Assembly: GCA_947427285.1 (NCBI GenBank)
Contig: CANEHE010000008.1
Coordinates: 18,028-82,027 of the forward strand
Source: an uncultured Porphyromonadaceae bacterium
GTDB taxonomy: Bacteria > Bacteroidota > Bacteroidia > Bacteroidales > Muribaculaceae
DNA: 64,000 nt
Reading direction: 5' to 3'
Shown here: piece after piece, positions 2,376 to 8,330 of the stretch
Position numbering within the stretch: position 1 is the first letter of the stretch
Layout: every line of letters starts with the position of its first letter
Notes under the pieces: model-generated
Databases searched by the model: none
What the model saw: only the letters and a program-made list of their open reading frames with translations
What the model was told of the DNA's origin: nothing
Program-made: the position numbers and the translations under genes

Positions 2376-4463
<2,088 letters not shown>

Positions 4464-4478
4464 TTATAAAAATTAGGA

Positions 4479-6896
4479 TTATTCAGCCAGAAGCGAACGA
4501 GAAGGTTCCTGAATGACATCTCTTACCGGGACAGCAGAAGCTCCCGAAAGAGGTCTGAGAGAAGAGGTCCTGGAAGTCACATTTCCCTGAGCGGCGGGAT
4601 ATTCCACTCCCTGGTAATTCATCAGTGAGACATCTATGCGGCTATTTTCCCTGACCGCATAAGCGGGAATGGGATAACGCCAACCGTTGATGGCCGATGT
4701 CGACAATGTGCCCGACATTGAGGCAGGCCAGTTGCCCGACGATGTGTCGCCCGACACGTACATCCGGCGTTCGAGGGGGAGATTCCAGCGTTTCTGGTCG
4801 AACCAACCGTGACCTTCGCCCCACAGTTCTATCCGACGATAACGCTGTATCTCCTGGAGCAATGCTTCGCCGGAGGCAGTGCATGAATAGGAGGAATCAC
4901 GACTGATGTTGAGCGATATAAGAAGCTGGCGCGCCATATTTTCATCCCCGAGACGGTAAGCCGCCTCTGCCTGGGAAAGCAGAACCTCCTCCGCACGGAG
5001 GAACACCACTGCATCCGTAAAGGAATAGGTCGGCTGGGAAGCATAGAATTTCACCTGCGCACCGAACTGAACCGGTACATATGACCCCGAACGGGCAAAT
5101 GCGGGATCGGTGGCACCCGTCGGCTTGGCACTTGCAAGAATGCTTGCGAACATCCTTGAGCCAGATTGCCATGATCCGCCACGCAGATATGTCAGAGTCT
5201 GACTGTCGACGTTGTCCGGATTATACCAGGCATTCCAAGTCGGCATCCTTGAAGCATAGTCCGGCATCGCGAAAAGACGACGACGCATATCGGTCTCCGG
5301 TATGGACATATATAGATCCTTATCTATGGCACCGGGAGCATATCGCCAGAGTGAAGGATAGACTCCGTTACAGGTATTAAAGGAATGGGCAGCCCAATAA
5401 TAAAGTCCTATTTCTCCTCCGCCCGGCATTATCTCATAACCATTGGTGGCACCCCACAGCCAGCTGCGTGTCGGGGTGAAGAATCCCGCTTTGAGATCAT
5501 CGGGGGTGGAAAGTGTCTTTCCGGTCATGATGGCTGCGGCAAGATCGCGGGCCGTCGACCAGTCTTCCCTGAGCATGGCAAGACGCATCTTCACGGCACG
5601 CGCCACATCGAGGCCGGGCATCAGAATGTCGGAAGAGACTGCCGGTACCCGTGTAAACACAGCGATCGCCTGGTCAAGATCGGCATAACACTGAGCGAGA
5701 ATATCCTTCATCTTCGCCAGAGGCTGGTGTTCTGTAGAGAAAGATGTCTCAAGAGGAACGCAATATGCCTCTCCGCCATTTGAATCCTGCCAACGTGAGC
5801 CATAGATCTGAAGCAACCGCCAGTAGGCATGACTGCGAAGAACAAGCATCCTCGCACGCACCACATCTATCTCGTCAGACGTCACACTCCCTTCGAAACG
5901 GCCAAGTTGGGAGATTACAAAATTGGCCAGAGCCACACTGCTGAAGCACATCTCCCAGGGAATAGCCTGCACCACAAGATCTGTTTTTTTCAACAGCTCC
6001 CATCCGAAGCCGATTTCCATAGCCAGACCACTGATCAGATTCTGCGATAAAGCATCTCCTACCGCCTGCATGATATACGGCTCACCGGTGGCATTGGGAG
6101 CGTGGAAGGCGATATCCTGATACTGTGTATACAGCGACCGCATTGCGATTGTCTCAATGGCATTGAATATCTCCGATGAGGGCTTCTCTGCCGATACACG
6201 GAATGTGATCGGTTCATTAGGCATGACGACTGCGTATGTCCAGACTCCTGGCTCTCCCTCGACAGGTCTGAATATCCCGTAACCTCCGTACCTTTTGTTC
6301 AGATCCTCCCGCTGGGAGGATGTATATACACTTCGCCGATAGAACGCATTGGTACCGTTATGCACAAAATCGGCCGGACCGAAAGCATAATCGTAATTCC
6401 AGAAAGCCTCGTCCTGAAGGTAGCCGCTCATCTCAAGATGGGAACCAACCACAGGATAATACCCTTCGGGAGCCTCGATACGCAGACGCAGAAGGGAGCC
6501 ACATTTCACATCCCCCTCTTCAGCGCGGGTCGGAACACTTCTGACATTGGCATCCTCGGTAACAATCTCGTACGACACCTTTATCTCCGGCTGTCCCGGA
6601 GTCTCACTGTCGGTCTCCACTGTGACAGGATAACTCTCCTGTCCCCACCGTACAAAACGGATGTCGGAGATGCCCGGCGTTTCTGCCGTAGCCCAGCTGC
6701 CGGCCACATACCATAAATCACCGTTCCGCTGCATTACGAACGGCTTAGTGCTATGTGAAGGATAATGGGAATGCAGAATCTTGCCGGTATGGTCATAATA
6801 ATCCACACGGGTGCTTCCGGGAGTATACTGAGCCACAGCGGAAGGAGCTGCCGCAGCCAGAGCGGCAAAAGCGGATATCAGTAGTCTTTTCATCAT
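4479..6896 (-). CDS. RagB/SusD-like protein with extra ~230-aa N-terminal region
   Basis: SusD-like C-terminal half (RAEEVLLSQAEAAYRLGD, RRIELWGEGHGWFDQKRW); signal peptide ...AAAAPSAVAQ without lipobox Cys. Confidence 0.75.
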   Translation of the reverse strand: MMKRLLISAFAALAAAAPSAVAQYTPGSTRVDYYDHTGKILHSHYPSHSTKPFVMQRNGDLWYVAGSWATAETPGISDIRFVRWGQESYPVTVETDSETPGQPEIKVSYEIVTEDANVRSVPTRAEEGDVKCGSLLRLRIEAPEGYYPVVGSHLEMSGYLQDEAFWNYDYAFGPADFVHNGTNAFYRRSVYTSSQREDLNKRYGGYGIFRPVEGEPGVWTYAVVMPNEPITFRVSAEKPSSEIFNAIETIAMRSLYTQYQDIAFHAPNATGEPYIMQAVGDALSQNLISGLAMEIGFGWELLKKTDLVVQAIPWEMCFSSVALANFVISQLGRFEGSVTSDEIDVVRARMLVLRSHAYWRLLQIYGSRWQDSNGGEAYCVPLETSFSTEHQPLAKMKDILAQCYADLDQAIAVFTRVPAVSSDILMPGLDVARAVKMRLAMLREDWSTARDLAAAIMTGKTLSTPDDLKAGFFTPTRSWLWGATNGYEIMPGGGEIGLYYWAAHSFNTCNGVYPSLWRYAPGAIDKDLYMSIPETDMRRRLFAMPDYASRMPTWNAWYNPDNVDSQTLTYLRGGSWQSGSRMFASILASAKPTGATDPAFARSGSYVPVQFGAQVKFYASQPTYSFTDAVVFLRAEEVLLSQAEAAYRLGDENMARQLLISLNISRDSSYSCTASGEALLQEIQRYRRIELWGEGHGWFDQKRWNLPLERRMYVSGDTSSGNWPASMSGTLSTSAINGWRYPIPAYAVRENSRIDVSLMNYQGVEYPAAQGNVTSRTSSLRPLSGASAVPVRDVIQEPSRSLLAE

Positions 6897-7432
6897 TTTG
6901 TCAGGATTTTAAAAGTGGTACCGTCAATATCGACGATATGGACTCCGGCCCCGTAACGGGCGATATCAATCTCTGTGTCAGACGTGATGGTGAAAGCGGC
7001 CTCCGCCACACCCGCAGCCGACCATACGGATATTTTCACAGGCGACTCCACCTGTGTGACACGCATCTTTCCACCGTCGACGTCAACATTCACTTTCGCC
7101 GAAACAGTGACATCTTCGACACCGGACAATCCGGAGAATGACATATACTCCAGATTATCGAGAGGCATGTCAAGATAGATGATCGACCCGGGAATATCAG
7201 CAGAGGGATGAATTTTCCCGTTATCATCCATTTCGACATTGCCGGTATAGAGCACCAGAGCCATCGGTTCGCCTTTAGGCTGAGTATATACCGAAAACAT
7301 GTCACCGGTAATATCAAAGGAGATCGTCTTCCAGTCGGCGGTTATCACTATCACCGACGGCGACGCCCCGGAAGCTGAAAGTCCGGCACAGGCAATGGCA
7401 CCAAGACTCAGAATACGACATAATCGATTCAT
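6893..7432 (-). CDS. Secreted protein with T9SS-type C-terminal sorting-domain-like end
   Basis: signal peptide; C-term VKISVWSAAGVAEAAFTITSDTEIDIARYGAGVHIVDIDGTTFKILTK resembles T9SS type A CTD; 4-bp overlap with downstream gene. Confidence 0.55.
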   Translation of the reverse strand: MNRLCRILSLGAIACAGLSASGASPSVIVITADWKTISFDITGDMFSVYTQPKGEPMALVLYTGNVEMDDNGKIHPSADIPGSIIYLDMPLDNLEYMSFSGLSGVEDVTVSAKVNVDVDGGKMRVTQVESPVKISVWSAAGVAEAAFTITSDTEIDIARYGAGVHIVDIDGTTFKILTK

Positions 7433-7514
7433 AACTTTATTAGGTTGTTGTTTAACAATAAGAAATTATTCACGGCACAAAGATATAAAGAATCCTCCGG
7501 TTTACCCCCCCGAG

Positions 7515-7548
7515 TAGTTAAAAATTGCAAAACGGCAATTTTTAACTA
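7515..7548. repeat. Perfect 14-bp inverted repeat in divergent intergenic region
   Basis: TAGTTAAAAATTGC-aaaacg-GCAATTTTTAACTA. Confidence 0.8.
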
Positions 7549-7672
7549 CATTTTCCGTAAATCACCGCAAAAATGCGGCGATTATTTGACATTTTCACCG
7601 CAAATATCTTTCTTCGTTGCTTTCTGATTTTATGGATTCCGATGCCGTCGCCCTGTGTCCAGGACAACGGAG

Positions 7673-7778: not shown

Positions 7779-8330
7779 GTGAATATGGAAAACAAACTCG
7801 TTGTCAACGGACTCAAATTCGTGCCCTATCTCAAGGAGGAGGAGATTCTGAAGCAAGTGAAGCGCGTAGCGGAGGAACTGCGCCGCGATCTGGAAGGGAA
7901 GAAACCCCTTTTCCTCTGTGTGCTCAACGGCGCGTTCATCTTCGCGGCTGATCTTTTCCGCGAGACCGGACTTAACGACGCACAGATTGCTTTCGTGCGC
8001 TATGCCTCCTACGAAGGGACCTCCTCCACAGGCAAGGTAAAGCAGATGATGGGCCTCCCCGACAACATCGAGGGGCGCGATATAGTCATAATAGAGGATA
8101 TTGTCGACACCGGTCTGACGGCCGACAGGATGATCGCCGACATACGCAAGCATAATCCGGCCTCGGTGCGCTTCGTCACTCTGCTCCACAAGCCTGCAAG
8201 CTCCAAGACAGGTTTCGTGCCCGACTACGTGGCTTTCGCCATTCCGCCGAAATTCATCATCGGCTACGGACTCGATCTCGACGGCAAAGTGCGCAATCTG
8301 CGCGACATCTACGTCAACACAGAGGACTGA
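7779..8330 (+). CDS. hpt: Hypoxanthine phosphoribosyltransferase
   Basis: PRPP motif DIVIIEDIVDTGLTADRM. Confidence 0.9.
   Translation: MNMENKLVVNGLKFVPYLKEEEILKQVKRVAEELRRDLEGKKPLFLCVLNGAFIFAADLFRETGLNDAQIAFVRYASYEGTSSTGKVKQMMGLPDNIEGRDIVIIEDIVDTGLTADRMIADIRKHNPASVRFVTLLHKPASSKTGFVPDYVAFAIPPKFIIGYGLDLDGKVRNLRDIYVNTED

Follow-up and report, generated by a model that had tools for sequence, protein, structure and literature searches.

SusD proteins are usually nutrient-binding lids, lipid-anchored and seated on a transport channel. The locus studied here, part of a 64,000-nucleotide stretch of Muribaculaceae DNA (the window), raises the question of what a SusD-like protein does when it has neither a lipid anchor nor a channel beside it, and when its gene overlaps that of a small secreted protein. 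A preliminary description of this DNA had proposed that the two gene products are a non-canonical surface or secreted complex and not a PUL pair.

Organization of the Locus

Both open reading frames were confirmed as originally placed. The small gene (6893–7432, minus strand, 179 aa) precedes the large gene (4479–6896, minus strand, 805 aa), and the two share the sequence ATGA at positions 6893–6896 of the minus strand, an overlap of 4 bp, read from the sequence, by which their translation would be coupled. Direct reading also revealed, ~46 nt upstream of the small gene, a motif resembling a Bacteroidota −7 promoter element (TATCTTTG; 7478–7485, minus strand), which we take to be a match to the pattern TAnnTTTG. 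Downstream of the large gene, a hairpin and a T run (4417–4453, minus strand; −31.9 kcal/mol for the folded stretch) make up a predicted intrinsic terminator. With the −7 motif before them and the terminator after them, the two genes look like a closed two-gene operon.

The divergent upstream neighbor (from position 7779, plus strand) was named by eye as a hypoxanthine phosphoribosyltransferase-like gene, and the downstream neighbor on the same strand (2376–4391) as a GyrB/ParE-like gene; neither suggests polysaccharide use. The interval that separates the hpt-like gene from the small gene also holds a perfect 15-bp inverted repeat, with arms at 7514–7528 (GTAGTTAAAAATTGC) and 7535–7549 (GCAATTTTTAACTAC). 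The whole element (7514–7549) is a possible operator or terminator.

The Large Gene Encodes an Orphan SusD-Fold Protein

The SusD/RagB-like region that had been recognized in the 805-aa protein was borne out by profile and structure comparisons. Pfam matches were over cut-off for both SusD_RagB (2.2e-12, residues 492–754) and SusD-like_3 (2.9e-6, residues 275–413), and profile matches were obtained to 33 solved SusD-type sequences. The AlphaFold2 model (mean pLDDT 78, pTM 0.81) matched SusD structures in Foldseek with target TM-scores of 0.76–0.81 (3myv, 0.81; 3snx, 0.79; 3lew, 0.78; also 3mcx). The protein is thus predicted to have a true SusD fold. The SusD domain, assigned from Pfam, AlphaFold2, and Foldseek, takes up residues 239–760 (4617–6182, minus strand). 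It is preceded by an N-terminal extension of ~215 aa (residues 24–238; 6183–6827, minus strand), which AlphaFold2 renders, with moderate confidence, as a small beta unit (29–83) and an alpha/beta domain (88–238), and is followed by a disordered C-terminal tail (residues 761–805; 4482–4616, minus strand; pLDDT 32–38) that is not a T9SS sorting domain (CTD). The fold at residues 239–760 is what the protein has in common with the SusD/RagB family (PF07980, PF14322), its nearest solved structures being Bacteroides SusD-like proteins. It differs from that family in having no lipobox, no SusC partner in the genome, an extra 215-aa N-terminal region, and a coupled CTD protein.

The type I signal peptide of the large protein, MMKRLLISAFAALAAAAPSAVAQ, contains no Cys, in keeping with the earlier remark that this is not an evident lipoprotein. 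A mis-called start that hides a lipobox, which would make it an ordinary SusD lipoprotein, was ruled out: since the reading frame is open for just four codons 5′ of the ATG, and a Cys first appears at residue 132, no lipobox is possible from any other start. Judged by its sequence, the protein is a non-lipoprotein. A lipobox is present in almost all relatives that adjoin a SusC, and in nearly all unpaired relatives with intact starts. A CTD carried by the SusD-like protein itself was likewise ruled out, as a search of the 805-aa protein for a T9SS tail gave no match at E ≤ 10.

There is no SusC gene adjacent to the large gene, and this absence, noted in the preliminary description, extends to the whole genome. 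A scan of the assembly (2.38 Mb, 99% complete) for both families gave four SusDs and three full-length SusCs, and every SusC directly adjoins one of the other three SusDs. The 805-aa protein is thus a SusD to which no SusC in the assembly belongs; an unpaired SusC, adjacent or distant, was sought as a partner, and the whole assembly holds none.

The Pair Is Conserved in Four Genomes

A search of 111 genomes of the genus recovered three further full-length copies of the pair (L101, L147, and L148), giving four genomes in all. In each of the four, a small CTD gene is followed, with a 4-bp overlap, by a SusD gene of ~800 aa that has no lipobox and no SusC alongside, and the neighborhood is a different one every time. 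The paired large proteins are 30–41% identical to the window copy, so the pairing has outlived much sequence change. The N-terminal extension was absent beyond these four genomes of one genus in a search of 397 family genomes. In a phylogenetic tree, the four paired SusDs form one clade (100/98) inside a SusC-partnered subfamily, a position in keeping with a single origin through duplication and capture.

The same tree lends something to a different reading, according to which the orphan SusD docks in trans on a SusC encoded elsewhere in its genome (the C3 locus), as a variant substrate-capturing subunit. The other members of the subfamily adjoin SusC, and all four pair-bearing genomes hold a second SusD of this subfamily. 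We nevertheless consider such docking improbable, given that the lipobox is absent, that a 215-aa domain occupies the end at which a SusD is normally anchored, and that SusC adjoins none of the four paired SusDs.

Several other loci with SusD-like proteins were noted. At a contig edge within the genus (L149:22–3303), a 1093-aa SusD-like protein has a CTD-like tail and is possibly, by its sequence, a cis version, with SusD and CTD on one chain; the tail scores under the NCBIfam threshold, and the locus was set aside as evidence for a SusD–CTD fusion. Large SusD-like proteins with dockerin domains are found in another genus (L353:3795–6605, L354:3754–6564, and L355:2602–5514), with the dockerin score over cut-off in L353 and under it in L354 and L355; no SusC lies near any of the three within the fetched ~9 kb. 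The protein at L355 also has BspA-type leucine-rich repeats, and its gene overlaps a GldK-like gene upstream by 4 bp. At L098:3802–10122, two genes come after the C3 SusCD pair, one for an 820-aa protein that by eye resembles a C10-type peptidase and the other for a secreted protein of 442 aa; the two proteins have similar C-terminal tails.

The Small Gene Encodes a Protein with a Type A T9SS Sorting Domain

The prediction of T9SS secretomes relies on CTDs in the secreted protein itself. The small gene of the window pair codes for a protein that, in its AlphaFold2 model (pLDDT 84), consists of little else: a signal peptide (residues ~1–23; a Sec signal is present by direct reading and a hydropathy heuristic), an ~80-aa beta domain, composed mostly of strands (residues 24–104; 7121–7363, minus strand), and a predicted type A CTD (residues 105–179; 6896–7120, minus strand). 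In the model, residues 115–178 form a domain of seven strands; pLDDT exceeds 90 over most of it. The T9SS-like tail of the preliminary description was upheld by profile and by fold; its length, put at ~50 aa, is rather ~75 aa.

The TIGR04183 profile scores only 12 bits against the small protein, below the cut-off of 23, while a CTD profile built without the small-protein group matches it at 2.1e-13. Foldseek aligned the model with the CTDs of RgpB (5ag8, 7pq4) and RemZ (8gl8_D) at probabilities of 0.96–1.00, with E-values of only ~0.01–0.03; probability was 1.00 for 7pq4 and 8gl8_D, at E-values of 0.02–0.03. The latter chain is the RemZ CTD in the T9SS translocon, where CTDs have been seen bound (PMC10994853), and the small-protein CTD shares its fold. 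The hallmarks of type A CTDs are motif B and D glycines and a near-terminal Lys (PMC11969387, PMC10994853). The corresponding residues, G141, G163, and K175, are kept in 61/61, 58/61, and 61/61 members of the small-protein family, respectively. From sequence and model together, we conclude that a type A T9SS CTD forms the C-terminus of the small protein, despite the sub-cut-off database score. The genome has a T9SS to go with it, with SprA at 2674 bits and 17 other CTDs over cut-off.

Just before the CTD, the segment SGVED (residues 103–107) resembles the published CTD cleavage consensus PT/GI (PMC11969387). A cut near this point would leave ~80 residues of the small protein on the cell surface. 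The N-terminal domain that would stay behind is related to the N-terminus (residues 1–83) of a solved GH5-type chain, PDB 6d2w A (profile positions 1–77, 3.6e-5). With type A cargo (TIGR04183/PF18962; RgpB, RemZ), the small protein has the seven-stranded CTD, the motif glycines, and the near-terminal Lys in common (PMC10994853, PMC11969387). It differs in having only ~80 aa before the CTD, its presumed cargo being a second polypeptide.

The Pair Belongs to a Wider Family of Two-Gene Units

A small-protein profile seeded with 12 sequences was searched against genomes of the bacterial family and order. Members of the small-protein family turned up in 142 of the bacterial family's 147 good genomes; across the order, where a strict cut-off was applied, 32 of 198 genomes have them. 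None of the 10 genomes without SprA holds the small-protein family, but with SprA present in nearly all genomes this co-occurrence is uninformative (p 0.16). To see what accompanies the small genes, we inspected the surroundings of 60 strong free-standing matches chosen by small-protein score. These 60 include the loci of some profile seeds that had been chosen in knowledge of their gene context; the majority of the 60 are non-seeds. A same-strand gene follows within 30 bp at 53 of the 57 score-chosen loci that have a downstream ORF, in 22 cases with an overlap of exactly 4 bp. Over the whole set of small-family genes in the fetched loci, a close same-strand follower (≤30 bp) is present for 57/62, compared with 33/109 other ORFs of the same size (p 4e-16), and an exact 4-bp overlap for 26/62, compared with 10/109.

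When small proteins were tested singly, 52 of 61 showed the T9SS sorting domain at E ≤ 0.01, and none of the 57 followers had a T9SS tail at E ≤ 0.0016; 56 of these 57 are apparently Sec-exported by a hydropathy rule. The follower types are FISUMP (15), SusD (5), CotH (2), and one each of GDPD, hydrolase, LRR, and laminin-G-like proteins. Partners as different as these are what would be expected for a carrier with exchangeable cargo. The window pair fits this wider unit, in which a CTD-only small gene lies directly upstream, on the same strand, of a gene for a larger Sec-exported CTD-less protein, and by these sequence features the SusD pair is one version of a broader family of such units. 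The family goes beyond what the preliminary description had read from the locus.

The window genome itself holds two more units, at C3 and C15, in which the partner is a FISUMP protein. These pairs, and many relatives, resemble the SusD pair in gene order, in their close spacing or overlap, in having Sec signals, and in the split of the CTD from the large protein; unlike it, they have partners that share an N-terminal motif, which is undetectable in the SusD version. This motif (strand-DG-...-D[IV]xxIxF) is common to most followers, 50 of 53 being recovered by leave-one-out profiles. It gave no profile match in the four SusD versions (E 35–360), and hhalign of the SusD version against it returned a 16-residue match only (P 0.022). 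Neither the HMM nor the profile–profile searches thus brought out an N-terminal docking domain common to the SusD version and the other partners. At L235:2272–3915, in another genus, the gene for a small CTD protein has 12 bp downstream of it the gene for a different SusD-like protein, which lacks a lipobox. On its sequence, this is a second SusD in the arrangement, for which SusD domain and gene order hold. Its reading as an independent capture with the common N-terminal motif was abandoned, since the motif is lost when L235 is left out of the profile (E 0.96).

A Proposed Sorting Signal in Trans

The part of the preliminary description that denied a PUL pair and placed the large protein in a secreted or surface system is well supported, since neither a mis-called lipoprotein nor a lack of conservation was found, the small protein has a CTD, and the genome has a T9SS. 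As for the complex, we infer it, together with export in trans, surface location, and ligand binding of the pair.

The reading that we prefer, and that we hold with evenly balanced confidence, is that the operon divides a surface protein between two chains, of which the small one would be both T9SS signal and surface anchor in trans for its SusD-fold partner. The small protein would cross the inner membrane by the Sec route, after which its CTD would be recognized by PorV/SprA for passage through the T9SS; the CTD would then probably be cut near SGVED, so that the ~80-aa domain is left on the cell surface. The SusD-fold partner would be exported by Sec as a soluble protein. Coupled translation would put it beside the small protein, to which it would bind non-covalently, and it would then be carried out and held at the surface. 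Having lost lipid anchor and channel, it would act there as a free-standing ligand binder and not as the lid of a SusC channel. What weighs most against this reading is the failure to trace in the SusD versions the N-terminal motif that most other partners share. More tentatively, and with somewhat less confidence than doubt, we extend this to a split type IX signal in gut Bacteroidales, in which the carrier takes a folded CTD-less protein through the T9SS and the cargo is exchangeable (SusD, FISUMP, CotH, GDPD, and others).

The two proteins might instead be co-regulated yet separate; the small one would then be a small T9SS cargo of the ordinary kind, and the SusD-like one would remain soluble in the periplasm and bind a ligand there. 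This would agree with the SusD-like protein having a Sec signal only, with no known route over the outer membrane, and it profits from the fact that we infer the complex. Without a physical link, however, it is hard to see why the same arrangement should recur with dozens of unrelated partners, why translational coupling should be strong, and why the CTD and the partner N-terminal domain should never occur on one chain (0 of 66 complete large proteins have both the N-terminal motif and a CTD, with 3.3 expected; p 0.03). We regard separate action as unlikely. Coupled expression and constant gene order would equally be seen if the partner were a periplasmic chaperone or stabilizer of the small CTD protein and not its cargo. 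The FISUMP, LRR, CotH, GDPD, and hydrolase partners are too varied for that role and typical of functional proteins of the surface or secretome, which makes a chaperone very improbable.

In the papers that we found on T9SS cargo, the cargo bears its own CTD, which speaks against carriage of a CTD-less partner by the small protein. Among openly licensed papers, we found no bicistronic, piggyback, or non-CTD T9SS cargo like this pair, and no description of small CTD and FISUMP-protein gene pairs was found in the literature. The fold families are known, and a T9SS signal that resides on a small protein of its own, coupled to varied CTD-less partners, is apparently undescribed. Should a separate small protein be able to carry the signal, an entire class of surface proteins of Muribaculaceae and other Bacteroidales is being overlooked, and a single gene pair would serve to test whether the T9SS can export non-covalent complexes. 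A SusD would, moreover, have had a route by which to leave the SusCD nutrient pump and become a free surface binder.

A cluster elsewhere in the window genome (L361:5527–9976) combines three CTD-tailed proteins, two of them small and one of 729 aa, with a CTD-less protein that has the N-terminal motif, which suggests that more complex arrangements of CTD units exist.
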